DNA from: Algibacter marinivivus
Lineage (GTDB): Bacteria; Bacteroidota; Bacteroidia; Flavobacteriales; Flavobacteriaceae
DNA length: 64,000 nt
Assembly (NCBI RefSeq): GCF_003143755.1
Contig: NZ_QFRI01000001.1
Span: 124,001 to 188,000 of the forward strand
Reading direction: 5' to 3'
Below, piece after piece: positions 1,045 to 60,266 of this stretch (positions are counted from its first letter, which is position 1; each line of letters begins with the position of its first letter). A program made the translations under genes and the position numbers. The notes beneath the pieces were generated by a model that saw only the letters and a list, made by a program, of their open reading frames with translations, did no database searches and was not told the DNA's origin.

Positions 1045-1125
1045 GCGTTAGGGATAGTAGCGGCATCCTTTTTTGAAGCATGAGAAAAAGATATAGCGAA
1101 TAGCCCGACCCTTGTGGTAACGCCC
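1045..1125 (-). repeat. Dispersed structured repeat, copy A (short core type)
   Basis: The element begins GCGTTAGGG and ends TAACGCCC on the plus strand, so its ends are inverted repeats; read in the family's canonical direction (GGGCGTTACC first) it lies on the minus strand. The core holds an ATCcTTTTT/AAAAAGAT pairing around 1065-1093 instead of the GC-rich third hairpin of copies B, D, F and G. It sits inside the predicted leader of blaI, 16 bp before the ATG. Confidence 0.8.
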
Positions 1126-1141
1126 AAATATTTATTAGGAC

Positions 1142-1501
1142 ATGGAAAAATTAACCAATAAGGAAGAAGAAATTATGCATATTTTATGGAAGCTAGAAAA
1201 GGCTTTTGTGAAAGATGTGCTTGCAGAAATTAGCGAAGATAAACCGCATTACAACACGCTTTCTACCATTATTAGAAACTTAGAAGAGAAAGGTTATGTA
1301 GCTTATAATGCTTACGGGAAAACACACCAGTACTACCCTATTATTAAAAAGGAGGATTATAGAAAACGGTTTATGAGTAATGCAATAGATAGCTATTTTA
1401 ACAATTCTTATAAGAATGTAGTATCATTTTTTGCTAAGGAGGAAAAGATTAGCGTTGAAGAATTAAAGGAGATAATTAAACTTATTGAAAAAAACGAATA
1501 A
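1142..1501 (+). CDS. BlaI/MecI/CopY-family transcriptional repressor
   Basis: A 119-residue winged-helix repressor, normal length for the Penicillinase_R family. The N-terminal part LTNKEEEIMHILWKLEKAF and the recognition-helix region HYNTLSTIIRNLEEKGYV are typical; the rest is the dimerisation/cleavage part. The stop is 2 bp before the start of the M56 peptidase gene, so the two are one operon and a sensor-repressor pair: the peptidase senses a signal at the envelope and the repressor is inactivated, normally by cleavage. In Bacteroidota such pairs are common without a beta-lactamase beside them, as here. Targets probably include its own promoter (dyads at 987-1035). Confidence 0.92.
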   Translation: MEKLTNKEEEIMHILWKLEKAFVKDVLAEISEDKPHYNTLSTIIRNLEEKGYVAYNAYGKTHQYYPIIKKEDYRKRFMSNAIDSYFNNSYKNVVSFFAKEEKISVEELKEIIKLIEKNE

Positions 1502-1503
1502 CC

Positions 1504-3306
1504 ATGGAATATTTAATTAAAGCGAGTGGCGTTATTGCTGTTTTTTACCTGTTTTACAAGTTGCTTTTAGAGCGCGATACTTTTTTTAAATCTAACAGGT
1601 GGTTTTTACTTGTTGGTTTATTGATTGCTATAATTGTACCTAGTATTGTAATTCCTGTATATATTGAATATACGCCTATTGATGTATCTGAACTTACATT
1701 TGAAAATGTTGCAACTGCTCCCGCAAATTCTGGTTTAGAGTTTTGGGATTACGTTATTATAGCCTATGCATTAGGTGTTGTTTTCTTTTTTGGTAGATTT
1801 TTTGTTCAGATGTCATCCTTATTACTCCTTATTTTTAAGAATAAAAAGGAAAAACAAGGCAAGTATACTTATGTAAAAACCAAAACTGATATTTCTCCGT
1901 TTTCATTTTTTAATTGGATTGTTTACAACCCAACGCAGTTTAATAAAACAGAATTGAAGCAGATAATTGCTCATGAAAAAGTACATGCTAAACAATATCA
2001 TAGCATAGACATATTATTAACGCATTTAGCCTGCGTTGTACTTTGGTTTAATCCATTTATTTGGCTTTATAACAAAGACTTAAAACAAAATTTAGAGTTT
2101 TTAGCAGATTATGATACTGTGCGTCAAACAGCTTGCAAAAAAACCTATCAATATACATTGCTTAAAACAAGTGTGCCAACTCATCAATTGGTATTAAGCA
2201 ATAATTTTTATAATTCATTAATCAAAAAACGAATCGTTATGTTACAAAAATCGAAATCAAAAAAAATCAACAAAATTAAATATGCATTGGTTATACCATT
2301 ATTAGTCATATTCCTGATGAGTTTTAACACCAAAGATATTTATATAAAAAAGGCAGAACCTGTTTTTGATATGCTTCCAAACCCGGTACTAAATAATCTA
2401 GAACCCGAAAAAAGCATGATTGTAGAAACGCCTTTAAAAACAAATGCAGTTGAGACTATTACAACACCAAAAGTAAAAAATAGGACCATAAATAATGTAT
2501 CTAAAAAAGAAGTTGAGGTTTTTATAGTTACAAAAAACGCTTCTGATGCAGATCTTGATCAAATTACTTCTGAAGCAAAAGCTAAAGGCGTTACTTTAAA
2601 ATTTAAAAATGTTAAGCGAAATGCTGACGGTGAAATTACTGCAATTAAAATTGAAGCTCGTGGAAATGATTCTAACGCTAGTTATAACTTAAATTCTGAT
2701 GAGCCTATTACACCAATAAAAATCTCTTTTGGCAAAAAAGGCAAAAACATTTCTATTGGTAATGCTAATGTTAAACAGAAATCTGTTACCTATATTATTA
2801 AAAATGGTAGTAAGGTTAGCAAAGTAAAAGGCACAGGAAGTGGTACTGAGAACATTTTTATATCTAATGATGATGGTGTTTATGAGGTTGAAGGTGACTC
2901 AGTACACTACATTACAAAAGGCAGAAATAGTTTTACAAAACGTATTAAAACTGTTGATGTTATTAAAAATGGAGATAATGACGATACCGTTGAAATTATT
3001 GTTGATAATGATGGTTTAAATGAGAATGAGGATATTATTATAGTAAAAAAGGATAAACCTGGTAAAACGGCTTATAAAGTAAAAGCTGTAGGGAAAGGAA
3101 AAAGTAATAACAAAGTCATTATTAAAACGGATGATGGTACTGAACCTATATATATTATTGATGGAAAAGAAGTTAAAAACAAAGCTTTTAAAACCTTAGA
3201 TAACGACGATATTAAAAGTATAAATGTTTTAAAAGGTGATTCGGCAATAAAAAAATATGGTGATAGAGCCAAAAATGGTGTAGTAGAAATTACAACCAAA
3301 GATTAA
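1504..3306 (+). CDS. BlaR1-like M56 family membrane peptidase with TonB-plug-like C-terminus
   Basis: A 600-residue sensor protease. Membrane segments are visible at about residues 5-21, 33-52, 82-112, 168-190 and 258-276. The zinc motif HEKVH is at residues 157-161, with the likely third ligand Glu198 in NLEFLAD. Instead of a penicillin-binding sensor domain, the extracytoplasmic part (about 280-600) is a Lys/Asn/Asp-rich region with a final 55 residues (IYIIDGKEV...VLKGDSAIKKYG...GVVEITTKD) that resemble a TonB-dependent receptor plug. This architecture is known in Bacteroidota M56 proteins, but the ligand is not. It forms an operon with the upstream BlaI-family gene (2-bp gap) and is followed by a terminator. 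Confidence 0.9.
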   Translation: MEYLIKASGVIAVFYLFYKLLLERDTFFKSNRWFLLVGLLIAIIVPSIVIPVYIEYTPIDVSELTFENVATAPANSGLEFWDYVIIAYALGVVFFFGRFFVQMSSLLLLIFKNKKEKQGKYTYVKTKTDISPFSFFNWIVYNPTQFNKTELKQIIAHEKVHAKQYHSIDILLTHLACVVLWFNPFIWLYNKDLKQNLEFLADYDTVRQTACKKTYQYTLLKTSVPTHQLVLSNNFYNSLIKKRIVMLQKSKSKKINKIKYALVIPLLVIFLMSFNTKDIYIKKAEPVFDMLPNPVLNNLEPEKSMIVETPLKTNAVETITTPKVKNRTINNVSKKEVEVFIVTKNASDADLDQITSEAKAKGVTLKFKNVKRNADGEITAIKIEARGNDSNASYNLNSDEPITPIKISFGKKGKNISIGNANVKQKSVTYIIKNGSKVSKVKGTGSGTENIFISNDDGVYEVEGDSVHYITKGRNSFTKRIKTVDVIKNGDNDDTVEIIVDNDGLNENEDIIIVKKDKPGKTAYKVKAVGKGKSNNKVIIKTDDGTEPIYIIDGKEVKNKAFKTLDNDDIKSINVLKGDSAIKKYGDRAKNGVVEITTKD

Positions 3307-3337
3307 CGATAAACATTACCAATTTTTATAGTTTTAA

Positions 3338-3367
3338 AAGGCACTCTATTAAGAGTGTCTTTTTCAT
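3338..3367 (+). terminator. Terminator of blaI-blaR1 operon
   Basis: Hairpin GGCACTCT/AGAGTGTC (3340-3359, one G-T pair) followed directly by a run of T, 34 bp after the stop of the M56 gene. Confidence 0.8.
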
Positions 3368-3370
3368 TTT

Positions 3371-3688
3371 TTTAGTTTATGTAATGATGAAAATCACTAA
3401 AAAGTACTTTTTTGAAACAAAACGCCCCTTGAGTTTTAAAAACTGTTACAAAAAACCCCTATAATTATTATAATTTAATACAATAATTATATTATTAAAT
3501 TACAAATAATAACTTTAATAAAGACCGTCACATAAATATTGAAATCAATTTCATCTTTTTACTTACAAATTCGTATTTAAATTCATTGATTTATATAAAA
3601 ACACTTGGTAAGCATATTGGTAAATATATATCTTCAAAAAACATTGATATAATTAACCTTATTTACAAACCTTTTAAAACCTAAAAAT
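3371..3688. other. AT-rich gene-free stretch with a palindrome
   Basis: No credible gene is seen here. A 10-bp inverted repeat TAATTTAATA/TATTAAATTA (3471-3480 and 3493-3502, 12-nt loop) is visible, but in such AT-rich DNA it could be chance. The stretch may carry the promoter for the small ORF at 3689; no clear TAnnTTTG box was found. Confidence 0.3.
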
Positions 3689-3748
3689 ATGATTACACTT
3701 GCCAAAATTGTAGTAGAAATAATAGTCTTTATTCTTTCACTACTATAA
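3689..3748 (+). CDS. Putative 19-residue hydrophobic peptide
   Basis: ATG to TAA encodes MITLAKIVVEIIVFILSLL, one hydrophobic membrane-spanning stretch with a Lys near the start and one Glu. It sits alone in a gene-poor region and is followed 10 bp later by a strong stem-loop terminator, which suggests a short dedicated transcript. The size and hydrophobicity resemble small membrane proteins or type I toxin peptides, but there is no homology evidence that I can give. An A-rich stretch precedes the ATG; Bacteroidota often lack a Shine-Dalgarno. Expression is unproven. Confidence 0.35.
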   Translation: MITLAKIVVEIIVFILSLL

Positions 3749-3758
3749 ATCAAAACCA

Positions 3759-3795
3759 AGTAAAACTTAGTCTAGAATAAGTTTTACTATTTTTA
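3759..3795 (+). terminator. Terminator after the 19-residue ORF
   Basis: A perfect 11-bp stem AGTAAAACTTA/TAAGTTTTACT (3759-3769 and 3778-3788) with an 8-nt loop, followed by ATTTTTAC. Confidence 0.7.
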
Positions 3796-3815
3796 CACTT
3801 TAAATAAGTTATAAA

Positions 3816-3968
3816 GTGAAAAAGCAAGTTTTTAAATTTTTAGCCAAAGTAAATAAACTAGTTCTTCCAAGTTACTCAAAAAAGCAATTAGATTTAGTAA
3901 AAGCTACTAAATTGCAAATGGCAATTATAGGCTGGAGATGGTATGTAACCCGAAATGCGTTAGATTGA
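3816..3968 (+). CDS. Conserved 50-residue flavobacterial protein, GTG start
   Basis: GTG to TGA encodes a basic protein beginning (V)KKQVFKFLAKVNKLVLP and ending QMAIIGWRWYVTRNALD. I recognise this kind of sequence as a short conserved protein of Flavobacteriaceae, often carried in databases with the unverified label 'SsrA-binding protein'; it has none of the SmpB fold length (about 150 residues), so that label is not adopted. The reading frame is intact, the composition is balanced rather than random, and the stop is 101 bp before the next ORF. The first codon is GTG; no in-frame ATG precedes it. The function is unknown. Confidence 0.75.
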   Translation: MKKQVFKFLAKVNKLVLPSYSKKQLDLVKATKLQMAIIGWRWYVTRNALD

Positions 3969-4069
3969 TAGATAAAAACACGCATTTTGGCTTAAATTTT
4001 GCGTTTTAATTATTTCTAATAGTACATTTACATCTAATAATTACAAATGCCCCACAAATCTCTAAACCT

Positions 4070-6124
4070 ATGGTTAAAACTATTTATCCATTATTAATAT
4101 TTCTAAGCTTCACATTACAAGTATTTTCTCAAGAAGCTAGTATCTCTACTAAATTTTCTCAAGATGGTAATCTATACCAAACAGAAGAGAGGTCGTCTGA
4201 AAAAATTGCAGAATTTAAAGAAAATCAAAAATGTATAGTTAAAAGCTACTTAGGTAATTATACTTATAAAGTAAAGTATAAAGATGTTGTTGGCTTTGTT
4301 AGAGATCAGTACTTGTTTGTTAATGAACAAATGATGGACTTGTATTTTGATCATGAAGAAAAGCAGCGAGAAAAAGCTATTGAAGCCAGAAAGCAGAGAC
4401 AAGACAAGGTAGAAGCTATTGCAAGAAAAGCTCGAGAAGAGAAAGAACTTATTGAACAAAGGAAAAGAGATTCTATAGCTAAGATTGAAGCTGAAAAGCA
4501 AAGAAAGCTCCTAGAAATTCGCAGAAACGATTCTATTGCTAAAGCCAGAATAGAACAAGAACGTCTTCGTATTGAACAAAGAAAAAAAGATTCTATTGCA
4601 CGAGTTATAAAAGAACAAAACAGACTGATAGCTGAAAAACGCAGAAACGACTCTATTGCTTTAGTAAAAGAAGAAGAGAGAAAGTTATTAGTAATAAAAA
4701 GACGTAACGACTCTATAGCAAAGGTAAACGCTGATAAAGAAAGACGTCGTATTGCACAAATAAAAAAAGACTCGATTGCTCAAGCAATTAAAGAACAAAA
4801 TAGACTAATAGCTGAAAAACGCAGGAATGATTCCATTGCTTTAGTTAGAGAAGAAAGAAGGAGACAATTAGCACTTCAAAAAAGAAACGATTCTATTGCT
4901 AAGGTTAAAGCTAATCAAGAATTACTTCGCATTGCACAACAAAAGAAAGATTCTATAGCAAGAGTTAAAATTGAACAAGATAGACTTCTAGCTGAACAAA
5001 GAAAAAAAGATTCCATTGCACAGGCATTAAAAGAACAAAAGCGGTTACAAGCTGAAAAACGTAAAACAGATTCTATTAACCAAGTTAATAAAGAATTAAA
5101 GCTATTAAAACAGCGAAATGATTCTATTGCTAAAGCTAAAGTGCAACAAAAGAAGGAAGCAGAGAAAAGAAAAAAAGACTCTATTGCCAAAGTAAATGTA
5201 GAGCAAGCAAAAGCTTTAGAACTTCTAAAAAAGCGAAATGATTCACTTAAATCTGTAAAATCTAAACTTAAAAAAGAAGCTGAAAGAAAAAAGAAGGATT
5301 CTCTAGCTAAAGTAAAAAAAGAGAAAGCTGATGCTTTGAAATTATTAAGAAAACAAAATGACGCTGCAGCTAAAGCCAAAAAAGAAGCTGAAAAAAACGA
5401 AAAAATTACCATCAAAAGATCTAGCGAAGCACTTTTAATAAAAGAAGAAAAAAGGAAATATGATTCTTTAATAAAGGCACAACAACAAGAAAGAAAAGAG
5501 TTGCAAGCACTTAAAAGGAAAAGTGATTCTATTGCTCAAGTTATTGCTCTAGAAAGACAAGAGTTAATAGCATTGAGAAAAAGAGATTCTATTGCTAAAC
5601 TTAATAATCAGAGATTACAAACTGATAATTCTCAACAGGAAGATATCTCCAGAAAAGCTCATGAGAAAGCCGCAAAAGAAGCTGCCTTTTTAGAAAGAAT
5701 GAAGTTTAGAGATTCTTGTCATTATCAAATTAATGAATATGATAAGTTTTATAACATTACAACCATTAGAACAGAAGCATATACATTAAGCAATAATTTA
5801 ACAGTTGAGTTATATAGACAAAACAGAAAAACAAATGTATTTTTTAACTACTCTGGAGACCTAGGTTGTGCATCTTATTTACCAAACCAAAGGTCTAGTG
5901 TTAAAGTTACTTTAGAGAATAATCAAACCATTCCTTTTTACCACTCTTGGGATATTGAATGTGGTGAGTTTTTATTTAAAGCTAGATTAACTAGTGCACA
6001 AATTTCAATTCTTAAAAATTCTCCAATTAAGTCTATTGTTCTCAAGGGAACTGAAGACTCAAAACAAATAAACTTTATTGAGTATAAAGAGTTTTTTATA
6101 GATAAACTCAAATGTATTGAGTAA
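4070..6124 (+). CDS. Exported coiled-coil repeat protein with SH3-like N-terminal domain
   Basis: 684 residues. Residues 1-20 are a signal peptide ending VFSQ. Residues about 30-90 look like a bacterial SH3 domain (NLYQTEERSSEKIAEF...GFVRDQYLFV). Residues about 95-530 are a highly charged helix built on a roughly 21-residue unit containing (R/K)(N/K)DSIAxV; I count about 14 DSIA and several DSL variants. A larger period of about three units is also visible, since KEQNRLIAEKRRNDSIAL occurs twice. The last 140 residues form a separate beta-rich-looking domain with four cysteines. This suggests a periplasmic or surface rod joining two globular domains. No specific function is known; a terminator follows. 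Confidence 0.8.
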   Translation: MVKTIYPLLIFLSFTLQVFSQEASISTKFSQDGNLYQTEERSSEKIAEFKENQKCIVKSYLGNYTYKVKYKDVVGFVRDQYLFVNEQMMDLYFDHEEKQREKAIEARKQRQDKVEAIARKAREEKELIEQRKRDSIAKIEAEKQRKLLEIRRNDSIAKARIEQERLRIEQRKKDSIARVIKEQNRLIAEKRRNDSIALVKEEERKLLVIKRRNDSIAKVNADKERRRIAQIKKDSIAQAIKEQNRLIAEKRRNDSIALVREERRRQLALQKRNDSIAKVKANQELLRIAQQKKDSIARVKIEQDRLLAEQRKKDSIAQALKEQKRLQAEKRKTDSINQVNKELKLLKQRNDSIAKAKVQQKKEAEKRKKDSIAKVNVEQAKALELLKKRNDSLKSVKSKLKKEAERKKKDSLAKVKKEKADALKLLRKQNDAAAKAKKEAEKNEKITIKRSSEALLIKEEKRKYDSLIKAQQQERKELQALKRKSDSIAQVIALERQELIALRKRDSIAKLNNQRLQTDNSQQEDISRKAHEKAAKEAAFLERMKFRDSCHYQINEYDKFYNITTIRTEAYTLSNNLTVELYRQNRKTNVFFNYSGDLGCASYLPNQRSSVKVTLENNQTIPFYHSWDIECGEFLFKARLTSAQISILKNSPIKSIVLKGTEDSKQINFIEYKEFFIDKLKCIE

Positions 6125-6138
6125 AAAAAATTTGTAAG

Positions 6139-6172
6139 TAAAAAAGCTCTCAATTATATTGAGAGCTTTTTT
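6139..6172. terminator. Bidirectional terminator
   Basis: Stem AGCTCTCAA/TTGAGAGCT (6145-6153, 6159-6167), with A-run before and T-run after, so it can end both the plus-strand coiled-coil gene and the minus-strand tRNA-Arg transcript. Confidence 0.85.
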
Positions 6173-6179
6173 ACTTTAG

Positions 6180-6253: not shown

Positions 6254-6267
6254 TTTTTTCGTGGGTG

Positions 6268-6334: not shown

Positions 6335-6337
6335 AAT

Positions 6338-6967
6338 ATGACTTCTACCTTACTACAAGAAAAATTTAACAACACCTTAGATAATTCGCTCATAAGCGAA
6401 ATAGAAAATATTGGTAAAATAGCCACATTTAAGACAAATGATATTATTATAGACATTAATCAACCTCTCAAATTCATTCCCCTATTATTGGAAGGTAATA
6501 TTAAAATTCTAAGAGAAGATTCAGAAGGTAACGAACTACTAATATATTTTCTAGAAGCAGGAGAAACCTGTACCATGTCTCTAACTTGTTGCATGGGAAC
6601 CACAAAAAGTAAAATAAGAGCCGTTGCAGAACAAGACTCCACACTTATCATGATTCCTGTTCAAAATATGCAAAAATGGTTTCATGAAAATGCCAGTTGG
6701 CGCAACTTCATCCTAGAAAGTTACCAAACCCGTTTTGACGAAATGCTCGAAGCCATAGATAACCTAGCCTTCATAAAAATGGACCAAAGGTTGTATAAAT
6801 ACCTCATCAACAAAACCAAACTCCACGATACAAAAACCATCATTGTAAAACATCAAGATATTGCTGAAGATTTACACACATCGCGTGTCGTTATTTCACG
6901 CCTTTTAAAACAACTTGAAAACCAAAACAAAATCAAACTCAGCCGAAATAAAATAGAAATCCTTTAA
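6338..6967 (+). CDS. Crp/Fnr-family transcriptional regulator
   Basis: 209 residues from the chosen ATG; an upstream in-frame codon at 6239 would lie in the tRNA-Arg gene and is rejected. The N-terminal half is a cyclic-nucleotide-binding-like beta barrel (IIDINQPLKFIPLLLEGNIKIL, EDSEGNELLIYFLEAGETC), and the C-terminal half has a Crp-type winged helix-turn-helix (IAEDLHTSRVVISRLLKQLE). Cysteines in TCTMSLTCC (about residues 78-86) could sense redox or sulfur species, which is speculative. The gene precedes the sulfur-transport and persulfide-oxidation genes at 7463-10713 in the same direction, across a 495-bp gap, and is a candidate regulator of them. Confidence 0.9.
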   Translation: MTSTLLQEKFNNTLDNSLISEIENIGKIATFKTNDIIIDINQPLKFIPLLLEGNIKILREDSEGNELLIYFLEAGETCTMSLTCCMGTTKSKIRAVAEQDSTLIMIPVQNMQKWFHENASWRNFILESYQTRFDEMLEAIDNLAFIKMDQRLYKYLINKTKLHDTKTIIVKHQDIAEDLHTSRVVISRLLKQLENQNKIKLSRNKIEIL

Positions 6968-6974
6968 ATAATTT

Positions 6975-7070
6975 GGGCGCTACCCAAGGGTCGGGCTTTC
7001 CGTTACAAGTCCTCGCTTGTGCGCTAAGGCGCAAAAGCTGTGGGCTTTCCACTGCAATCCCTAGCGCAAT
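6975..7070 (+). repeat. Dispersed structured repeat, copy B
   Basis: Canonical direction on the plus strand: GGGCGCTACCC at the left, CCCTAGCGC at the right. The end stem is GCGCTA/TAGCGC (6977-6982, 7062-7067), a paired double change relative to the commoner GCGTTA/TAACGC. Internal hairpins ACCC/GGGT and TGCGC/GCGCA are intact. It lies 8 bp after the Crp-family stop. Confidence 0.85.
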
Positions 7071-11981: not shown

Positions 11982-12081
11982 CCCGCGTTAGCGATTGCAG
12001 TGGAAAGCCCACAGACCGACGAAGGAGGTGCGAGGACTTGTAATGTAAAGCGCGACCCCGATTTTCATCGGGGTAACGCCC
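11982..12081 (-). repeat. Dispersed structured repeat, copy C
   Basis: Ends GCGTTA (11985-11990) and TAACGC (12074-12079) on the plus strand; canonical direction is minus. The first internal hairpin is the longest in the family, CCCCGAT/ATCGGGG with a tetraloop (12056-12073). It lies between tpiA and prmA, co-directional with both, so it would be transcribed if they form one unit. Confidence 0.85.
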
Positions 12082-12095
12082 AAATTATTATTTAT

Positions 12096-22133: not shown

Positions 22134-22227
22134 GGACTCTGTGTATTATTGTAAAAGCACAAAGATAGATAGATTTACGCTTCCTATAAAGCCTCTAATC
22201 TTAATTATATATTAAAACATTTTTTTT

Positions 22228-22374
22228 GCGTTACCCCGAAAAGGGGTCGGGCTTTTATTCATACATTTCTATTTTAAATTTTTGAATTCATGAACATAAA
22301 TGTTTCGTTACAAGTCCTCGCTTCTGCACTAGGGTGCAAAAGCTGTGGGCTTTTCTCTGCAATCCCTAACGCGG
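22228..22374 (+). repeat. Dispersed structured repeat, copy D (with internal insertion)
   Basis: Ends GCGTTA (22228-22233) and TAACGC (22367-22372). The first hairpin is ACCCC/GGGGT; the third is TGCAC/GTGCA, a paired change from TGCGC/GCGCA in copies B and F. About 45 extra AT-rich bases sit between the 'gggctttt' and 'cgttacaagtcctcg' blocks, so the middle tolerates insertion while the stems persist. Confidence 0.85.
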
Positions 22375-22558
22375 GTTTGTTTGCTTATTTTATTTTTAAG
22401 TCAAAAAAGAAGGTTTTTTTGGATAGATTTGTTTAACGTCCAGTATAATAAATATAGTGAAGGAGATTAACACTCTCGTTTCGGTTTATTACTTAGCTAA
22501 ATAGCATATTTATGTTTAAAACAAACAACGGTACTTTTTTATATCGCTTTGTGCTTAG
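22375..22558. other. Non-coding stretch after copy D
   Basis: No gene is supported here. A segment TTTAACGTCCAGTATAA at 22431-22447 precedes the 3' end of the hydrolase-like gene. It reminds me of short sequences found at edges of accessory genes in flavobacteria, but with a single occurrence this is only a note. Confidence 0.25.
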
Positions 22559-23533: not shown

Positions 23534-23719
23534 TTTAGTTATTGGTTGTTATTAATTAAGTACAATATTTCACGAATATGAAAACGCTTTAATGTTTTGC
23601 ATCCGACGGTAAACGAAGGTAGCTGAATTTTTTAATAAAGTCAAGTTAATAACTTTCATTTCAAATAGATTAAATGAATTATCAATAACTTTACAAACAC
23701 AAATTACAGTTTCAATTTA

Positions 23720-24226
23720 ATGACCAAAATACTCCTCTTATCAGACACACATAGCTATATAGACAACGACATTTTAAAGTACGTTAAACAAGCTGATGAA
23801 GTATGGCATGCTGGCGATATTGGCAGTTTAAAAGTTACCGATGCTATAAAAGCTTTAAAACCTTTACGTGGTGTTTATGGTAATATTGATGATGCCGAAG
23901 TACGTTTAGAATTTCCAGAGCATAATCGTTTTATGTGTGAAGATGTAGATGTTTGGATAACGCATATTGGTGGCTATCCGCCAAAATACAATGGTAGAGT
24001 GATTGAGACTATAAAACAAAATCCGCCACGATTATTTATTTGCGGGCATTCGCATATTTTAAAGGTGATGCCTGATAAAAAACTAAACCTCATCCACATG
24101 AATCCGGGTGCAGTTGGTAGACATGGGTTCCATAAGGTTAGAACTATGCTTCGTTTTACTATTGATGGTAAAAAAATTGATGATTTGGAGGTTATTGAAT
24201 TCCCTGTTAGACATCCAAAAAACTAA
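23720..24226 (+). CDS. YfcE/MJ0936-type metallophosphoesterase
   Basis: 168 residues, the family's normal size. The dimetal site is complete: LLSDTHS, WHAGDIGS, YGNID, ICGHSHI and NPGAVGRHG. Such small calcineurin-like enzymes hydrolyse phosphodiesters; the natural substrate is generally unknown. It is followed by the FKBP gene, which has its own -7 element, 72 bp downstream. Confidence 0.93.
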   Translation: MTKILLLSDTHSYIDNDILKYVKQADEVWHAGDIGSLKVTDAIKALKPLRGVYGNIDDAEVRLEFPEHNRFMCEDVDVWITHIGGYPPKYNGRVIETIKQNPPRLFICGHSHILKVMPDKKLNLIHMNPGAVGRHGFHKVRTMLRFTIDGKKIDDLEVIEFPVRHPKN

Positions 24227-24784: not shown

Positions 24785-24859
24785 TTTCCTTTTTCTGTGA
24801 GTTTATGCCTTAGCAGGAATGACAGAACATTGGATAAGCTATAACCTTGGCAGATGCGT

Positions 24860-25008
24860 GCGTTAGGGATTGTAGTGGCATCCTTTTTTAAATTGACTAA
24901 CACAAAACTAACTTTAGAATAAATAATAAACAGATAGCCACGTCGATCACTCCTTTCTATGACGTTTAAAAAAGATATAACGTAAAGCCCGACTTTAGGG
25001 TAACGCCC
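24860..25008 (-). repeat. Dispersed structured repeat, copy E (short core type with insertion)
   Basis: Plus strand reads GCGTTAGGG at 24860 and TAACGCCC at 25001-25008. Like copy A it has the tagtGGCATCCTTTTTT block and an AAAAGATAT block, here separated by about 75 inserted bases. It lies between the convergent FKBP and DUF4293 genes. Confidence 0.8.
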
Positions 25009-25012
25009 ATAA

Positions 25013-25044
25013 AATAAAAAAACCCAAAGCTTTCGCTCTGGGTT
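25013..25044 (-). terminator. Terminator of the DUF4293 gene
   Basis: Stem AACCCAaAGC/GCTcTGGGTT (25021-25044) with an A-rich stretch at 25010-25020, which is the T-run on the minus strand. Confidence 0.75.
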
Positions 25045-29998: not shown

Positions 29999-31138
29999 AT
30001 GCAATTTAACAACTACCTAAAAAGAAAAATGCCATTTTTAGCCCTACTTGGTTTACTCTTTGGCTTAGTTTCATGTGGCTCATACCAATATGTTGGTGTT
30101 GATAGTGATGGGATTTATGGAGACACCCCTCAAGTACAAACTCAAAACACTGAGACTGTTGCAGTTGTTGAAGTACCTAATAAAAACAATAGTGACTTCT
30201 ATAAAGATTACTTTAGATCAAAATCTATAGAATCAGAAAATATTTATACTGGTGATGAAATATTCACTGATATAGATGCCTATGAAGGTCCGAATTATGT
30301 TGAAAACGATACACTACAAAATAATTACCAAGGCTATGCAGGCTGGGGTCAAGACAGCAATAGCATAACAATAAATTATATAGACAACGGTTGGAATAAC
30401 TGGGGTTGGAATGGTGGTTTTGGCTGGGGCTGGAACCGTTGGAACAACTGGGGTTGGAATAATTGGGGCTGGAATAGATGGAACAACTGGGGTTGGGGCG
30501 GAGGCTTCGGCTGGGGCTGGAACAACTGGGGATTCAATGATCCTTTTTGGTGCCCTCCTTTCTATGGTAATGCTTGGGCATATAATAGAGGTTTCTACAA
30601 CAGAGGTTTTTTTAATAATAGAGGGCTTTACAGCAGACGAAGTATTGCTTACAATGGAAGTAGAAGAAATAGTTATGCTTCAAACAATTCTAGAAGAGGT
30701 GTTAGTAGTAATAACTTAAATAGACGTAGCTCTGTAAACTCGCAAGGAAGAACAACATCTAAATACAATACATCAAGAAGAGGAAGTGTTTCTAGAAATT
30801 CTACTTCTGCAACAACTAATAGAAGAGTATATAATCCAAACGGTACACGCACATCTTCGGGTGTTACAAGAAGATCTACAGTAGCAAGAACACCTTCTAC
30901 AAATTCTACAGCAAGATCTTCATCATCAAGAAGAAGTTCTAGTTCTGTTTACAGACAACCTACACGAAGTAGCTCAAGTTCTGGTGTTTCTAGAAGATCT
31001 TCATCTTCAAACAACAGAAGCTATACTCCAAGTAGAAGTTCATCTAGTTCAAGATCAAGTTCAGCATCTAGATCATCTTCAAGTAGTAGAAGTTCTGGAA
31101 GTAGTTCAAGATCTTCAGGTGGAGGAAGAAGACGTTAA
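29999..31138 (+). CDS. Lipoprotein with Trp/Asn/Gly repeats and Ser/Arg-rich tail
   Basis: 379 residues. A lipoprotein signal ends in GLVSC (Cys about 26) before GSYQYVGVDSDGIYG. After an acidic region, residues about 130-180 are built of repeated NNWGWN/GGFGWGW units (coding DNA 30385-30535 is visibly repetitive). Residues about 195-379 are a disordered Ser/Arg tail (YNRGFYNRGFFNNRG, then SSSSRSSSASRSSSSS). Similar proteins occur in other Flavobacteriaceae, some under the misleading name vitellogenin; no function is established. Basic, sticky composition suggests binding to polyanions or surface material. The porin gene at 31261 follows. Confidence 0.8.
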   Translation: MQFNNYLKRKMPFLALLGLLFGLVSCGSYQYVGVDSDGIYGDTPQVQTQNTETVAVVEVPNKNNSDFYKDYFRSKSIESENIYTGDEIFTDIDAYEGPNYVENDTLQNNYQGYAGWGQDSNSITINYIDNGWNNWGWNGGFGWGWNRWNNWGWNNWGWNRWNNWGWGGGFGWGWNNWGFNDPFWCPPFYGNAWAYNRGFYNRGFFNNRGLYSRRSIAYNGSRRNSYASNNSRRGVSSNNLNRRSSVNSQGRTTSKYNTSRRGSVSRNSTSATTNRRVYNPNGTRTSSGVTRRSTVARTPSTNSTARSSSSRRSSSSVYRQPTRSSSSSGVSRRSSSSNNRSYTPSRSSSSSRSSSASRSSSSSRSSGSSSRSSGGGRRR

Positions 31139-45400: not shown

Positions 45401-45575
45401 GTTTGAATACTTGGTGTCATTTCTGTAAATGAGAAACCTCATGATTTATGTTTTGGTCAAAACTTGACTTTATAAAAATTTTCAGCTACTTTCGTCTTAT
45501 ATGAAATATAAAACATTAAAGAATTTCTTTATATGCTTAGCTTTTGTCTCGTTTTAAAATAAAATTCAAAAATGT

Positions 45576-46388: not shown

Positions 46389-46530
46389 AAAAGATTTCAA
46401 AAATAATTCAAAAAGTTTAAGCTGACAAGACATAACCCTCTTCAAGAACTAGTAATAATCAAATTCATTAAACAAACCTTTCCCAAAGCAAACCAAATTC
46501 CATTCTAAACCCAATAATCCAGCAAACAAA

Positions 46531-46627
46531 CCCGCGTTAGGGATTGAAGTGAATAGCCCACAGCTTTTGCGCCTTAGCGCAGAAGCGAGGACTTGTAACG
46601 GAAAGCCCGACCCTTGTGGTAACGCCC
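46531..46627 (-). repeat. Dispersed structured repeat, copy F
   Basis: Plus-strand ends CCCGCGTTAGGG and TAACGCCC (stem GCGTTA 46534-46539, TAACGC 46620-46625). The third hairpin TTGCGC/GCGCAgAA (46567-46583) is intact. Canonical direction is minus, opposite to both flanking genes. Confidence 0.85.
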
Positions 46628-46829
46628 AAATAACACTTATTTATTACTTCAATTTAATAGATTCTTCGCTTCGCTCTGAATGACAAATAATTAATGTATC
46701 TTCGCCGCTTGAAACTCAAGATGAGTTTACTCCTCAGGGTGAGGATGTGTTACTGGAAGTTTAAGTTTAGTATGTCGATGCGCTTCTTTATGTAACACCA
46801 CATAACAAAATCGCATACATTAAACAAGA
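46628..46829 (+). promoter_or_regulatory. Upstream region/possible structured leader of the DEAD-box gene
   Basis: TATCTTCG at 46697-46704 is one base from the TAnnTTTG -7 element. If used, the leader would be about 120 nt; it contains CTC/GAG short pairs near 46715-46745 and a longer-range GTGTTAC/GTAACAC pairing (46747-46753, 46792-46798). Cold-shock DEAD-box genes often have structured leaders, so control by RNA folding is possible. No ORF is supported here. Confidence 0.35.
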
Positions 46830-55112: not shown

Positions 55113-55135
55113 AAAATATTTAGATTCTTAAAAAA

Positions 55136-55609: not shown

Positions 55610-55645
55610 CAGGATAATTTTAGATTTTAAAAATAAGAAAACCTT

Positions 55646-56224
55646 TTGACTACAGAACAACTCTATAACGAATTAAATTATGTAAACCATTCGAGAGAAA
55701 AACGATTGTTTTATGCACATATGATGCAAAACAATCCAAAGTTAGTTCCTAAACTACTAAATATTTTATTTAAAGTAGATGATAAAATTTCTCCACGCGC
55801 AGCTTGGGTTTTTGAGTTTATGTGCAATGATGATATAAACACTATAATCCCTTATTTAAACAAGTTTACTGAAAATATGCACAAAGTTCATTTAGATTCT
55901 GCTGTTCGTCCAGTTGCCAAAATATGTGAATTTCTGGCAAAAGCATACACTAGTAAAGAAGACAACAATATCAAGACTGCTTTAACAGAAACTCATAAAG
56001 AACGTATTATAGAAAACTGTTTTGATTATATGATAAATGATGAAAAGGTAGCTCCAAAAGCTTACTCTATGAGTGTTCTCTTTTTACTTGGAAAGGATTA
56101 CGATTGGGTTTATCCTGAATTGGCTCGTATTTTAGAGGACGATTTCTCTAAACAAACTGCTGCTTTTAAAGCTAGAGCTCGTCATATTTTAAAAAAAATC
56201 AAAAAAGCATCACCTAAAAACTAA
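55646..56224 (+). CDS. Hypothetical helical-repeat protein upstream of purB, TTG start
   Basis: 192 residues starting at TTG. The sequence is helical and HEAT-like in feel (RAAWVFEFMCNDDINTIIPYL, VRPVAKICEFLAKAY, APKAYSMSVLFLLG), but no named domain is certain. In Flavobacteriaceae such a gene commonly precedes purB; the gap here is 77 bp and purB has its own -7 element. No ATG occurs upstream in frame; the first in-frame ATG is at residue 26, inside a conserved-looking segment, so TTG is preferred. Confidence 0.72.
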   Translation: MTTEQLYNELNYVNHSREKRLFYAHMMQNNPKLVPKLLNILFKVDDKISPRAAWVFEFMCNDDINTIIPYLNKFTENMHKVHLDSAVRPVAKICEFLAKAYTSKEDNNIKTALTETHKERIIENCFDYMINDEKVAPKAYSMSVLFLLGKDYDWVYPELARILEDDFSKQTAAFKARARHILKKIKKASPKN

Positions 56225-56244
56225 AAAAACTTCAAGGGTCATAC

Positions 56245-56275
56245 TTCCTTCTTCGGTCTTAAAAACCTATCTTTG
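56245..56275 (+). promoter_or_regulatory. Promoter of purB
   Basis: -7 TATCTTTG (56268-56275) with a TTC at 56245-56247 in the -33 position, spacer 20 bp; the leader is about 24 nt. Confidence 0.6.
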
Positions 56276-56301
56276 CAACTTCAAAAAATCAAACCAAAAT
56301 T

Positions 56302-57645
56302 ATGTCATTATCAGCATTAAATGCCATCTCTCCTATCGATGGTCGCTACAGAAATAAAGTCAATGAATTGGCTCCTTATTTTTCTGAAGAAGCATTAATA
56401 AAATACCGTGTTTTAGTTGAAATAGAATATTTTATTGCACTTTGTGAAATTCCATTACCTCAACTAAAATCTATTGATTCTGGTGTTTTTGATAGTTTAA
56501 GAGCCATCTACAAAGACTTTTCAGCTGAAGATGCAACAGCTATAAAAAAGATTGAAAGTGTTACAAATCATGATGTAAAAGCAGTTGAATACTTTATTAA
56601 AGAGCAATTTGATACTTTAGGTTTATCTGAATATAAAGAGTTTATTCATTTTGGACTTACCTCTCAAGACATTAACAATACAGCAATTCCTTTAAGTATA
56701 AAGGACGCTATGAATGATGTTTATGTTCCTGAATATTTTATTGTTTTAGATAAACTTAAAGCATTATCTAAAGACTGGGCAACAATTTCTATGTTGGCCA
56801 GAACACATGGACAACCAGCATCTCCTACTCGACTTGGTAAAGAAATTGAAGTTTTTGTAGTGCGTTTAGAAGAGCAATTCAATTTACTAAATGATATCCC
56901 AAGTGCGGCTAAATTTGGCGGTGCAACAGGAAACTTTAATGCACACTTTGTGGCTTATCCAGATATTGACTGGAAAGCTTTTGGTAGTCAATTTGTGCAA
57001 GAAAAACTAGGTTTACAACATTCGTTTCCAACAACACAGATTGAACATTACGATCATATGGCCGCTTTGTTTGATACTTTAAAACGTATAAACACTATTA
57101 TTCTTGATTTAGATAGAGATATTTGGACATATGTTTCTATGGATTATTTCAAACAAAAAATCAAAGCTGGTGAAGTTGGAAGTTCTGCAATGCCACATAA
57201 AGTAAACCCTATAGATTTTGAAAACTCTGAAGGAAACTTAGGTATTGCAAATGCTATTTTCGAGCACCTTTCGGCAAAATTACCAGTTTCTAGATTACAA
57301 CGCGATTTAACAGATAGTACTGTTTTAAGAAATGTTGGTGTCCCTTTTGGTCATACTCTTATTGGTTTTAAATCTACTTTAAAAGGTTTAAATAAATTAT
57401 TATTAAACGAATCTAAGTTTGCTGAAGATTTAGAAAACAATTGGGCAGTTGTAGCAGAAGCTATTCAAACCATATTGCGAAGAGAAGGGTACCCAAACCC
57501 TTATGAAGCTTTAAAAGGGTTGACCAGAACCAATGCAAAAATAAATCAAGATTCTATTTCTAATTTTATTGATACCTTAGATGTCTCTAACACAATAAAA
57601 GAAGAATTAAAGCGTATTACACCTAGTAATTATACAGGAATCTAA
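56302..57645 (+). CDS. purB: Adenylosuccinate lyase
   Basis: 447 residues. Cleaves adenylosuccinate and SAICAR in purine synthesis. Motifs SPIDGRYRNKVNELAPYFSE, FGLTSQDINNTAIPL, ARTHGQPASPTRLGKE and the signature loop SSAMPHKVNPIDFENSEGN with the catalytic Ser are complete; this is the E. coli-like PurB class. A small membrane-protein gene follows after 9 bp. Confidence 0.97.
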   Translation: MSLSALNAISPIDGRYRNKVNELAPYFSEEALIKYRVLVEIEYFIALCEIPLPQLKSIDSGVFDSLRAIYKDFSAEDATAIKKIESVTNHDVKAVEYFIKEQFDTLGLSEYKEFIHFGLTSQDINNTAIPLSIKDAMNDVYVPEYFIVLDKLKALSKDWATISMLARTHGQPASPTRLGKEIEVFVVRLEEQFNLLNDIPSAAKFGGATGNFNAHFVAYPDIDWKAFGSQFVQEKLGLQHSFPTTQIEHYDHMAALFDTLKRINTIILDLDRDIWTYVSMDYFKQKIKAGEVGSSAMPHKVNPIDFENSEGNLGIANAIFEHLSAKLPVSRLQRDLTDSTVLRNVGVPFGHTLIGFKSTLKGLNKLLLNESKFAEDLENNWAVVAEAIQTILRREGYPNPYEALKGLTRTNAKINQDSISNFIDTLDVSNTIKEELKRITPSNYTGI

Positions 57646-57654
57646 TTTAAGCTT

Positions 57655-57852
57655 ATGTTAAACGACAAACAATCCTTGGCACTTACCGGACTTATGGTTG
57701 CTGGTATTTTTGTTTTTGGAATTCTAGATGTTCTAGATAATTTTGTGGTTTTAACAATACTAACAATTGTGTTTTTTACAGTTTTAATAAACATGTTTTA
57801 TTCCAAGTTTAAGTCAGAAGAAATAAAACAAGAAGAAAATAATTCTAAATAA
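57655..57852 (+). CDS. Small two-helix membrane protein
   Basis: 65 residues: two hydrophobic helices (LALTGLMVAGIFVFGILDVL and VVLTILTIVFFTVLINMF) and a charged Lys/Glu-rich tail. No known domain. It lies 9 bp after purB and before a strong terminator, so it is the last gene of the purB unit. Confidence 0.7.
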   Translation: MLNDKQSLALTGLMVAGIFVFGILDVLDNFVVLTILTIVFFTVLINMFYSKFKSEEIKQEENNSK

Positions 57853-57854
57853 AA

Positions 57855-57881
57855 AAAGGCTTCCAAATTGGAAGCCTTTTT
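57855..57881. terminator. Terminator between purB unit and DUF4252 gene
   Basis: Stem AAAAGGCTTCCAA/TTGGAAGCCTTTT with a one-base centre, A and T tracts on the two sides; serves both convergent transcripts. Confidence 0.9.
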
Positions 57882-57904
57882 AACATTAACATAATTACTA
57901 TTTA

Positions 57905-58447
57905 TTATTTAAAGAAGTTCATAATATCTTCTATTTGTCCTTCTTCAACATTTGCATTTTGCAATGCATTAATTAGAGTAACCATTTTTTCAGGGTTCAT
58001 ATCATCACCCAAAATTCTAACAATTCCAAAGCCCATATCTTTAGCGCTTCCAAATACAATCACCTCATCTGCCGCTTCATCATCGCCAATATACTTCACT
58101 GAAATTTTGTTGCCTTTATCACTAAATTCCATTAAATCATTATACTTACTATCGCTTAAAATGGTTTTTACTTTTGCTATTTCAGCTTTATAAGCATCAG
58201 TATCTGTTTCACTAGATTTATATCCTAAAAAATTTAATTTATCCACAGATTCATAAGCTTCTATTTGTGCTTCAGTAAAATTAGATTTATCAATTTCAAT
58301 CATTGATAATGGTAAATCTTGGGATATAAAGTTTTTAGCTTCTTGATTGTCTACATAATAACTTTGTAAGCTAGTATTATTTCCGCAGCTAGTTAAAATA
58401 ACTGCGGTAAATAATGTATATGCTAAATATTTGATTGCTCGTTGCAT
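57905..58447 (-). CDS. DUF4252 lipoprotein
   Basis: 180 residues with a lipoprotein signal (AVILTSCGN). DUF4252 proteins are Bacteroidota-specific and usually accompany an ECF sigma factor; biochemical function unknown. It is the last of four genes reading sigma, putative anti-sigma, DUF4252, DUF4252. The second DUF4252 gene (17 bp upstream) is a paralogue, sharing the layout of a VKTILSD/ITSFKTIV-type strand and a late ILGDDM.../VSMTGDID segment. Confidence 0.85.
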   Translation of the reverse strand: MQRAIKYLAYTLFTAVILTSCGNNTSLQSYYVDNQEAKNFISQDLPLSMIEIDKSNFTEAQIEAYESVDKLNFLGYKSSETDTDAYKAEIAKVKTILSDSKYNDLMEFSDKGNKISVKYIGDDEAADEVIVFGSAKDMGFGIVRILGDDMNPEKMVTLINALQNANVEEGQIEDIMNFFK

Positions 58448-58464
58448 TGATTGATTTTTAAATT

Positions 58465-59025
58465 TTAGTTACCTTTTTCTAAATGTTTACCACCAGGGAT
58501 ATTCATTTTATCAGTAAGCTTAGAAATTTCATTAAGGTCTATATCTCCAGTCATAGATACTACAACAGTTTCAATTTTACGCTCTTTTCCATTAATTTCA
58601 ATCTTATCGTCCATCACTTTATCTATACCATTTACATAGATTAAAAGTTCTTTAACATGGTCGGCATCTTTACCTTCTTTTACATAAAACTTCACCTCAG
58701 TACCATCATCCTTAACTTCCATTAATTCTTCTAAGCCTCCAGAACGAGATTTTACCCATTTAGAGATATCACTAGAAATTGATGAATTATCTGTAACAAT
58801 AGTTTTAAAACTTGTGATGCTCTTTACCATATCCATATAAGCCTTAGCTTCTGCATCTTCAACATTAATTCCCATTTTGGCAATCATTTGAAACATTTTT
58901 GGCTTAATAGAAACGTAAGTTACATCTGGGTTCTCACTATACTTTTCAAAAATATTCTTTTGAGCCATTCCCGTTAATGGTAATAACATAATGGCCATTA
59001 CTAGTACTATTAATTTATTTTTCAT
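58465..59025 (-). CDS. DUF4252 exported protein
   Basis: 186 residues from the ATG at 59025 (MKNKLIVLVMAIMLLPLTG signal, then AQ), preferred over an earlier in-frame ATG because the signal peptide starts there. The mature part is a small alpha/beta DUF4252 domain (VKSITSFKTIVTDN, LLIYVNGIDKVMDDKI, TVVVSMTGDIDLNEI). Probably the main exported output or partner of the adjacent ECF system. Confidence 0.85.
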   Translation of the reverse strand: MKNKLIVLVMAIMLLPLTGMAQKNIFEKYSENPDVTYVSIKPKMFQMIAKMGINVEDAEAKAYMDMVKSITSFKTIVTDNSSISSDISKWVKSRSGGLEELMEVKDDGTEVKFYVKEGKDADHVKELLIYVNGIDKVMDDKIEINGKERKIETVVVSMTGDIDLNEISKLTDKMNIPGGKHLEKGN

Positions 59026-59095
59026 TGTTCTTGTGTTTAAATTATTTGAATTTTTCATTGTTTTTTAATTGATACTGAAACAAGTTCAGCACATG

Positions 59096-59569
59096 TTAGT
59101 TTTTAAAAATTATACTTGTTGTGTTTTCAATTTCGTTAAGATACCCTAAGGTAGAAGTGCCTTTATTCACTTCATTAAGATAGCTAACTGTTGATGCGCC
59201 TTTGTTGAATTTTGTGGAAATCATTTCCATAGATTTCGAAAACTCATTAAAAGCTAATTGTGGATCTTCATAAGTACCTAAATCAGTATTACCAAATGAA
59301 GTTCCAAAATAGAAACCTAACATAAGAACCGCTACAGCTGCGACAGAAATCCATTTGTAATTAAAAATCGTCTTAGTTTTTAATGGAACGTCTTTAGTAA
59401 ATTGTTCTTGTTGGTTTCCCAAAAAATACGCAAACATAGGTTTATACATTTCTAAATGTGGTGCCACTGTGTCGCTTGTAAAATAGTTTTTCAACACTTG
59501 CTCCTCTTTAAGGCTTGTTTCTCCGTTTTCGTACTTTTCTAGTAATTTTTCTATATTATTTAATACCAT
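59096..59569 (-). CDS. Putative anti-sigma factor-like membrane protein
   Basis: 157 residues. N-terminal EKLLEKYENGETSLKEEQVL is a motif common in flavobacterial proteins next to ECF sigmas; a single helix KWISVAAVAVLMLGFYFGTS lies at about residues 73-92; the C-terminus has a local duplication (VSYLNEVNKG / LGYLNEIENT). No zinc-anti-sigma (HxxxCxxC) motif is visible. It overlaps the sigma gene by 14 bp, consistent with a cognate regulator; anti-sigma function is inferred. Confidence 0.7.
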   Translation of the reverse strand: MVLNNIEKLLEKYENGETSLKEEQVLKNYFTSDTVAPHLEMYKPMFAYFLGNQQEQFTKDVPLKTKTIFNYKWISVAAVAVLMLGFYFGTSFGNTDLGTYEDPQLAFNEFSKSMEMISTKFNKGASTVSYLNEVNKGTSTLGYLNEIENTTSIIFKN

Positions 59570-60065
59570 AATTATGTGTATTAGTTAATTTCTCTCTTAT
59601 TGTTTTTCTTGCTCTAGATAAGGCTACTCTAACTGCTGTATTATTCATTTCCAGCATTTTTGCAATCTCATCAAAATCATATTCTTCTATATCTCGTAAT
59701 TGAATTATCATTTTTTGCTGTTCAGGTAAATCTTCAATAATTTTTGCTACCCAACTCACACTATCATTTAATTCAACTTGCTTTTGCAATGGTGTGTTTT
59801 TCTCCTCGTAATTACTATGCACAATTTTTAAATTCTGTGCTTGTTTAGATTTTAACTTATCAAAACAGTAATTCTTTGTCATCGTCATCGAAAAAGCCTC
59901 TACATTTCTATACTCCGCAATTTTCTTCTTGTTATTCCATAATTTCAACAACACTTCTTGCGTAGCATCCTCAGCCTCTTCCGTAGACACTAGCAATCGT
60001 TTCGCTAAACGAAATACTTTATCCTTAAAAGGCATTACAATATTTAAAAACTCTTTCTGAGTCAT
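59556..60065 (-). CDS. ECF-type RNA polymerase sigma factor
   Basis: 169 residues. Region 2 (FRLAKRLLVSTEEAEDATQEVLLKLWNN) and region 4 (LPEQQKMIIQLRDIEEYDFDEIAKML, then NTAVRVALSRARKTIRE) are clear. It heads a four-gene unit with a putative anti-sigma and two DUF4252 genes, so it likely responds to an envelope signal and drives those genes. No -35/-10 pair specific to ECF sigmas could be picked out upstream. Confidence 0.95.
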   Translation of the reverse strand: MTQKEFLNIVMPFKDKVFRLAKRLLVSTEEAEDATQEVLLKLWNNKKKIAEYRNVEAFSMTMTKNYCFDKLKSKQAQNLKIVHSNYEEKNTPLQKQVELNDSVSWVAKIIEDLPEQQKMIIQLRDIEEYDFDEIAKMLEMNNTAVRVALSRARKTIREKLTNTHNYGIK

Positions 60066-60173
60066 TTCTCGGTTGTATTAGTATGGTTAAAAACAGCTTA
60101 GTTACGGCTATTTAATATTACGACGACCATCTATTTAATTTGTTACACAACATATCAAAAAAAATAAAAATTT

Positions 60174-60266
60174 GGGCGTAACCCTCTCGGGTCGGGCTTT
60201 CCGTTACAAGTTTTGGCTCGATGCTCGCCTCGCCAAAAGCTATCCACTTCAATCCCTTACGCGGGG
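60174..60266 (+). repeat. Dispersed structured repeat, copy G
   Basis: Canonical on the plus strand: GGGCGTAACCC at the left and TTACGCGGGG at the right, end stem GCGTAA/TTACGC (a paired change from GCGTTA/TAACGC). First hairpin ACCC/GGGT with a TCTC loop; third hairpin TTTTGGC/GCCAAAA replaces TGCGC/GCGCA. It lies between the divergent sigma operon and S41 protease gene. Confidence 0.85.

Follow-up and report, generated by a model that had tools for sequence, protein, structure and literature searches.

A Flavo-1-related hairpin family in Algibacter marinivivus and its probable part in dispersed, single-slot, integron-like docking loci

The 64,000-nucleotide stretch of the Algibacter marinivivus genome analysed here (contig NZ_QFRI01000001.1, positions 124,001 to 188,000; the window) contains seven intergenic hairpin elements, A to G, that are related to the Rfam motif Flavo-1 (RF01705). 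Judged by sequence comparison, the seven copies form one dispersed family with a conserved predicted structure, some of whose sites recur across the genus, and a subset of Flavo-1 copies forms the right border of a repeated composite locus that carries variable single genes in several genera. The slot of this locus is empty at some sites, and elsewhere it holds mostly one co-oriented gene, often ending in an attC-like site. Overall, it is probable that the Flavo-1 copies and these docking loci make up a dispersed, single-slot, integron-like docking system of which Flavo-1 is the right border in some genera.

The docking locus consists, from left to right, of a promoter-like box, an attC-like hairpin ending in ATT, a slot, a right half (AAACGAAC), a leader and Flavo-1. 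This layout is deduced from two observations: the left half or platform, CTTGACTTTGT..TANCTTCG followed by the attC-like hairpin, is itself repeated, and at empty loci the ATT or GTT of the hairpin runs straight into AAACGAAC (L039, L144 and, in G004, L208; loci are numbered L and genomes G throughout). The left half has a sharp left end and 32 matches in the window's genome; it occurs in nine of the ten genomes of the genus that were searched, G003 giving no match. Its 7-nt hairpin arm pairs fully at 40 of 81 sites and in six of seven positions at 27 of 81, where arms dealt from other sites give 25.0% and 26.1%, respectively. The core consensus of attC is RYYYAAC...GTTRRRY, and the platform hairpin of L039 (GTTTAAC...GTTAAAC) fits this consensus. 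The leader starts with GTTAAACGAAC, is mostly 60-66 nt long (53 and 84 nt in two) and precedes P1, the outer stem of the element, in a subset of copies. It came to light through an asymmetry in the spacing of genes around 70 copies, in which the 3' end of the element often lies 7-30 nt from a gene and the 5' gap has a median of about 80 nt. Before the leader stand the attC-like sites of solitary cassettes, that is an open reading frame (ORF), then CAACNNCGTGTATAATT...CATACACAANACC, then GTT. A conserved leader peptide was considered and rejected, since it is the docking core, not an ORF, that delimits the leader; a small ORF that precedes the G048 copies was rejected because by eye its frame is not maintained from copy to copy, and P1 as an attC-type core because its GTT/AAC order, again by eye, is opposite to that of attC. 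At L311, in Lacinutrix, a terminator-like hairpin with a T run stands in place of Flavo-1 and follows the right half directly.

Two loci of this kind lie in the window (Table 1). At D the left half is found by a pattern match at 23607-23645 on the minus strand (0.15 expected by chance per window) and by a genome match at C1:147585-147646; the right-half pattern alone has a mean of 1.7 chance matches per window, for D and F alike. The 324-aa ORF in the slot of D matches no Pfam family at E<=0.001, and none of the seven relatives spanning the site aligns with its stretch, the aligned flanks being 0.2-8.6 kb apart there. Element D itself is present in six relatives (G007, G004, G008, G009, G002 and G005), each with different 5' DNA, and G003 has no element at the site. 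The degenerate left half of F was missed by the stricter left-half pattern scan of the window and was already known there before the F loci were compared; the F locus is empty in G009, with a Flavo-1 hairpin, holds a gene with an attC-like end in G007, a short insert without ORF in G008 and other genes in G004, where no att sequences were seen by eye. The first-pass annotation had regarded the elements as dispersed in both orientations, REP/MITE-like (repetitive extragenic palindromic/miniature inverted-repeat transposable element-like) or else a generic RNA element, and in no fixed relation to flanking genes. Their REP/MITE-like dispersal and mixed orientation are borne out, and in a simple ORF call the neighbouring genes of 70 copies fall into all four arrangements (22, 17, 17 and 14) with no strand preference; the lack of any fixed relation does not hold for D and F or for many further copies, whose distance to a gene slot with recombination-site-like sequences at its borders is constant.

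Table 1 Elements and docking-locus features in the window (positions are those of the window)
Feature	Position	Strand	Remarks
Element A	1042..1133	+	S1 subtype (T/A-rich P2); R1 88.6, Flavo-1 49.4 bits
Element B	6967..7070	-	S2 subtype, P1 GCGCTA/TAGCGC; R1 98.6, Flavo-1 36.5 bits
Element C	11982..12089	+	S2 subtype, special base GCGAT/AGCGC; R1 92.7, Flavo-1 34.3 bits
Element D	22218..22375	-	S2 tip, insert in 3' arm; right border of occupied docking locus; R1 42.3 bits
Element E	24857..25016	+	S1 subtype, long tip insert; R1 66.7, Flavo-1 49.6 bits
Element F	46531..46635	+	S2 subtype; right border of degenerate docking locus; R1 97.6, Flavo-1 28.6 bits
Element G	60166..60265	-	S3 subtype (TTTTGGC/GCCAAAA), P1 GCGTAA/TTACGC; R1 90.6, Flavo-1 44.9 bits
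D left half	23564..23646	-	promoter-like CTTGACTTT..TACCTTCG, attC-like hairpin ending ATT; outer limits by eye
D slot ORF, 324 aa	22559..23533	-	same strand as left half
D candidate attC-like cassette end	22437..22558	-	after stop codon; by-eye reading
D right half and leader	22376..22436	-	TTAAACAAATCTATCCAAAAA...
F degenerate left half	45461..45526	+	inverted repeat I3 with 23582-23647, 76%
F slot ORF, 270 aa	45576..46388	+	other DNA in this slot in G007, G008 and G004
F right half and leader	46468..46530	+	TTAAACAAACCTTTCCCAAAG...

The association between left half and Flavo-1 extends well beyond these two loci. In the window's genome a Flavo-1 copy on the same strand lies within 3 kb downstream of 17 of 23 left halves (18 counting the abutting L039), with none on the opposite strand and one upstream, while random placement gives a mean of 1.5 and at most 8 in 20,000 trials. 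The 23 left halves come from the 25 listed of the 32 own matches, two listed rows covering the right half only, and the Flavo-1 set comprises 144 matches of the covariance model R1 (see below) plus two hand-added positions, one of which gives 1 of the 17 positives. Of 30 attC-like loci from the genus, 14 have a match that enters the leader, and R1 detects Flavo-1 at 7 of these and at none of the other 16. A pattern scan of named genomes yielded 81 left halves in 79 stretches, from Algibacter, Hyunsoonleella, Lacinutrix, Flaviramulus, Wocania, Winogradskyella, Gaetbulibacter, Olleya, Seonamhaeicola, Jejuia, Flavivirga and Arcticiflavibacter, all of which we take to belong to the Flavobacteriaceae, and from four entries named Flavobacteriaceae bacterium and one named Bacteroidetes bacterium. 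Twelve of these left halves are empty, 45 are occupied in the sense of a right-half core-like 10-mer within 6 kb, counted without a chance control, and 24 were assigned to neither class. A downstream Flavo-1 has the same strand in 29 cases (pointing to 27 distinct copies) and the opposite one in 2, an upstream Flavo-1 the same strand in none and the opposite one in 8; for 19 of the 29, which come from Algibacter, Flaviramulus, Hyunsoonleella, Jejuia and Seonamhaeicola, the core stands 60-66 nt before Flavo-1. Where the core follows within 1.5 kb (n=33), 28 slots have their longest ORF on the platform strand and 1 has it on the other strand, the remaining 4 having none of 50 aa.

The border is shared between species at several sites at which the slot contents differ. 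Eleven leader loci were compared in G007, G004 and G008 through their conserved 3' flank, giving 26 site-genome pairs from 32 matches (the six excluded were three second matches to one segment, one at the edge of a contig and two that lacked loci), and the leader is conserved beyond 100 shuffles in 14 of the 26. In 13 compared pairs, the genes 5' of the core showed no similarity to each other at the protein level; by our own reading both slots are occupied in six of these (L026 with three genomes, L050/G007, L044/G008 and L135/G007), one side being empty or incompletely read in the others, and the core of L184 having been placed too far 3'. The one DNA match among the 13 pairs (L026/G008) is a shared left flank: the L026 site is different in each of the four genomes, and as far as the attC-like hairpin its left flank is common to the window's genome and G008. 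In G008 the element at this site (L181) lacks P2 and the 5' arm of P1; P3, the 3' arm of P1 and the leader remain. At the L134 site, the DNA 5' of the element is near-identical in two species (L189 and L190, in G007 and G008), which hints at recent transfer or common descent.

The seven elements were confirmed in the window sequence at the positions and with the ends first reported for them, and an unsupervised repeat search pairs them (families D9, D10, D14, D18 and D19; inverted pairs I1, I2, I4 and others). A suspected relationship to Flavo-1 was also correct, the elements being extended relatives of RF01705: A, E and G pass its cut-off of 42 bits, B, C and F match below it (Table 1), and for D no match was listed at E<=1. 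A covariance model was built from genome copies and searched against the genome and its relatives. This model, R1, adds the outer stem and the side hairpin and matches all seven at 42.3-98.6 bits (weakest E 1.6e-7 in a 390 kb search); it was trained on 35 genome copies, picked for short tips from 70, of which a parsing script took in 61. Since A, B, C, F and G (L021, L032, L040, L069 and L024) were among the training rows, independent matches are limited to D and E. Over the 3.34 Mb of the genome (11 contigs), RF01705 has 70 matches at E<=0.001, 24 of them over the cut-off, and R1 has at least 144 at E<=0.01 among the best 150 of 610 candidates scored. The whole-genome counts with R1 refer to at most 150 candidates each, and absence from such a list means little: the D copy of G007 is missing there and was found by another R1 search. 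With strict filters, Flavo-1 was found at E<=0.001 in 35 of 60 genomes (the window's included), with 20-47 matches per genome in ten of the genus, 0-23 in other genera of the family and 0-32 in other families. The window's copies share with Flavo-1 a P2 core with internal loops, the occurrence in Bacteroidetes and many copies per genome; they differ in adding the outer stem P1, the side hairpin P3, a leader and a tail to the core, to whose 76 positions the Rfam model is confined, and 20 inspected copies from other genera and families are without P1 and P3. Both ends of the largest contig are R1 matches (C1:16-136 and C1:1892403-1892523), which suggests that the assembly breaks at Flavo-1 repeats. 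Apart from these elements, the window has coding repeats with periods of the 60-nt and 24-nt type at 4430-5600 (ORF 4070-6124) and 30392-30562 (ORF 29999-31138), families D1-D5.

The fold consists of the outer stem P1 enclosing a long irregular hairpin, P2, and a short hairpin, P3. The stems first proposed are real, and their layout needed correction: the hairpin described as the third is the tip of P2, and the first is P3. Their covariation stood up in two tests against shuffles. In the 35 copies, 95.0% of cells are paired (83.6% in shuffles, 26-51% with the partner slid), 13 of 20 pairs have changed on both sides (7.5) and 72 cells carry a double-side change (18.3). In 92 distinct genome copies, whose alignment was fitted to R1 and leans towards the model, 94.3% of cells are paired, 18 of 20 pairs have double changes and these number 245 cells, as against 66.1 in shuffles; the copies are not identical recent duplicates with changes at random positions. 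P1, of 5-6 bp, covaries as well and could be a stem instead of a transposon end. P2 has two symmetric 3x3 internal loops with conserved G.A or A.G positions, which in the 35 copies are invariably of this kind at columns 13.82, 16.79, 18.77 and 21.74 and are A.G in 28 and C.A in 7 at column 23.72, while column pair 15.80 has swapped between T-A (19 copies) and A-T (16 copies) and shows no intermediate. The tips of P2 look as if they were exchange points, since they are often other palindromes: CCCGATAGCTATCGGG (for example in L033, L043, L046, L051, L063 and L064) and, in the G040 copies L081, L082 and L084, CAGGCTCAGCCTG. A further P2 subtype, GATTGAACGGCATGTTTGAA...GAGTAGTGAAAGCCCG with near variants, is found mostly at docking-type loci (L104, L108, L110, L112 at the D site, L130, L199 and L203).

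The covariation had been read as a sign of selection, but copying from arm to arm could give part of it. The alternative that it arose altogether from such copying, by template switching in near-palindromes, and from exchange between copies is tentative, yet it survives best among the rivals: double changes outnumber one-sided ones by 245 to 21 cells in the 92 copies, tips have been replaced in place, often by other palindromes, and element E belongs to subtype S1 in two species but to S2 in another. Tip replacement and the rarity of one-sided changes fit copying between arms or copies as well as they fit selection, so that covariation alone is no proof of the latter. However, copying would not protect the unpaired G.A positions, which are conserved, and the window's C has a G.T state intermediate between the G.C and A.T of its orthologues.

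The gene order of parts of the window recurs in nine genomes of the genus, which are about 75-90% identical in the aligned parts, an identity at which element ends and target duplications cannot be placed. Element C occupies the same site in G007, G004, G009, G003 and G006, where its unusual base GCGAT..AGCGC recurs (as GTGAT in one), and gives a weaker R1 match in G008; over six species this site has about four clearly different P2 tips and several P3 variants in which the pairing of P3 is kept. Element E is S1 in the window and G007 and S2 in G004, and is not at the site in G008, G009, G002, G005, G003 and G006. Element B, for which three genomes were projected, has an orthologue with another tip in G007, is cut down in G004 and absent in G009. 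At window positions 24226 and 27300, five relatives each carry a copy that the window lacks. Such a pattern could be that of a plain MITE- or REP-type repeat moved in trans by a transposase, without functional link to cassettes, given its 144 or more matches in both orientations, sites occupied in some relatives only, and a P1 that resembles short terminal repeats. REP elements are small, intergenic, palindromic repeats of high copy number that are moved by RAYT (REP-associated tyrosine transposase) enzymes, and the present elements share all four of these features of the repeat; they differ in their multi-helix fold and in the absence of a PF01797 protein from the genome. The Y1 transposase was accordingly rejected as the mobiliser, PF01797 having 0 matches in the genome and being present in 5 of 14 control genomes, with other transposase families and target duplications not searched. 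As the docking loci would also be left unexplained, a plain repeat is a rather doubtful account of the family.

Flavo-1 has been described as probably an RNA and not cis-regulatory (Weinberg et al. 2010; PMC2864571), and its Rfam type is that of a small RNA (sRNA). If it were a structured RNA, either an sRNA or an element of untranslated regions, the docking loci would be neighbours by chance or through a shared tolerance of intergenic space. The strong covariation and the conserved G.A positions would suit an RNA, as would the composition of the mismatches: on the Flavo-1 strand G.T outnumbers A.C by 24 to 12 in 1,780 cells (19 to 8 in a second count), and the pairing is therefore nearly pure Watson-Crick with a lean to G.T on that strand. 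Yet G.T makes up just these 24 cells, compared with 8 of 86 in the four tRNAs at hand, a very small sample, and the 70 copies have no preferred orientation to genes. In the Flavobacterium psychrophilum transcriptome, Flavo-1 matches are reported to lie in sense and antisense, many of them outside transcribed regions (PMC9723704). Single-sequence RNA folds of the seven exceed shuffles in stability by only a modest margin (z -0.36 to -3.62), and minimum-energy folding gives a consensus-like structure for A, partly for G and for none of the other five, a signal so weak that single-sequence folding was rejected as evidence. Moreover, presence at a site varies between species, and chance neighbourhood does not account for the 60-66 nt spacing found in 19 of 29 cases. 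Taken together, this makes a structured RNA with incidental neighbours unlikely.

A candidate machinery for the docking loci is encoded on contig C6, where five attC-like sites with ORFs between them form a 4.7 kb array (C6:51389-56064) of the same attC-like family as the solitary cassettes. The array (region G000:C6:51389-57801, L127) adjoins a tyrosine recombinase gene, and a Flavo-1 copy lies about 265 nt after its last site. In G008 the recombinase is one open frame of 407 aa, with at least 14 sites listed in the roughly 30 kb downstream, and it has Phage_integrase and SAM-like N-terminal domains. Its best NCBIfam match is the integron-integrase family TIGR02249, at 212.8 bits against a cut-off of 265, followed by a XerA-type family at 205.0 against 220; no match over the TIGR02249 cut-off was found in any of the 60 genomes. 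The relatives of solved structure are XerC-like, then XerA, with IntI4 (2a3v) third. Typical matches align with TIGR02249 at about 2-181 and 238-315 and leave about 178-240 unaligned, which we take to hold the integron-integrase-specific insertion. Owing to the score below cut-off and the unaligned part, recombinase and array are classed as integron-like and not as an integron.

The system resembles a chromosomal integron in its array of ORFs and attC-like sites beside a tyrosine recombinase, in the joint at GTT and in single cassettes that are oriented with a promoter-like box. It differs in that the slots are dispersed singly over the chromosome, that the recombinase falls under the TIGR02249 cut-off and that the array sites, which end in GTTGGCA or GTTGTGN, do not fit GTTRRRY. 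It also resembles attG, the insertion of cassettes in the genome outside integrons (Loot et al. 2024, as cited in PMC12901181); here, however, the site is a conserved repeat with hairpin, box and fixed right border, whereas attG sites are divergent from classical att sites according to the same text. That the docking loci are ordinary degraded integron fragments, be they CALIN (clusters of attC sites lacking integron-integrases) or attG insertions, is improbable: attC-like sites, the cassette array, GTTRRRY cores at solitary sites and the attG precedent would fit, but both halves recur in conserved form at many unrelated sites and remain in place where the slot is empty, and the described divergence of attG does not match. 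The words Bacteroid and Flavobact occur in neither PMC8352920 nor PMC10963911, and no description of the docking locus was found among titles and beginnings of abstracts of the open-licence papers listed for Flavo-1, for repeats in Flavobacteria and for integrons, which is weak evidence of novelty.

Several findings weigh against a dispersed docking system bordered by Flavo-1. Left halves tie about 1 in 8 Flavo-1 positions of the genome (18 of 146) to a docking locus, and in the named genomes 36 left halves are without a downstream R1-type Flavo-1 versus 29 with one, 16 stretches being too short, so that the link between left half and Flavo-1 is not general; this set includes G005, G007 and G008 and is thus not fully independent of the first. 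The leader is not conserved in 12 of the 26 site-genome pairs, and 6 of the 14 pairs with a conserved leader are also similar beyond shuffles in the 220 nt before the core, a similarity that we infer to stem from related attC-like sites. The promoter-like box TANCTTCG differs at one position from the sigma-A -7 element, given as TAnnTTTG in PMC6847099 and PMC9723704. The excess of G.T over A.C is what a role as RNA would give as well. Finally, the recombinase reads in two frames in the window's genome and is without a defining integrase feature, and its action on the docking sites is one that we infer.

The docking system that we nevertheless consider probable could work as follows. A Xer/IntI-type tyrosine recombinase whose gene adjoins the chromosomal array would dock single cassettes at the platforms by exchange at the joint between ATT and AAAC, and the left promoter-like box would transcribe the docked gene. 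The Flavo-1 hairpin would act at the level of DNA, whether by contributing to the structure of the site or by forming a transcription border that shields the next gene, and the copies without a recognised docking site would be the same hairpin spread independently as a non-autonomous DNA repeat. For marine Flavobacteriaceae more broadly, we lean slightly towards a dispersed integron. Some species would have dozens of single-slot platforms in the genome, every platform with a promoter-like box and an attC-like hairpin to itself, and a Xer-like recombinase other than a classical IntI would fill and empty them; the Flavo-1 hairpin would be a DNA part of the right border in Algibacter and its relatives. 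Scattered slots with a promoter of their own would avoid the silent distal cassettes of long arrays. A DNA role at sites of gene capture would make the function of Flavo-1, listed in 2010 as a probable RNA, testable. An earlier study found only integrase-only elements in Bacteroidetes, and IntegronFinder 2.0 now names one complete integron there (PMC9024848); a widespread cassette system in this phylum, if true, would therefore change the picture of gene exchange in these bacteria.

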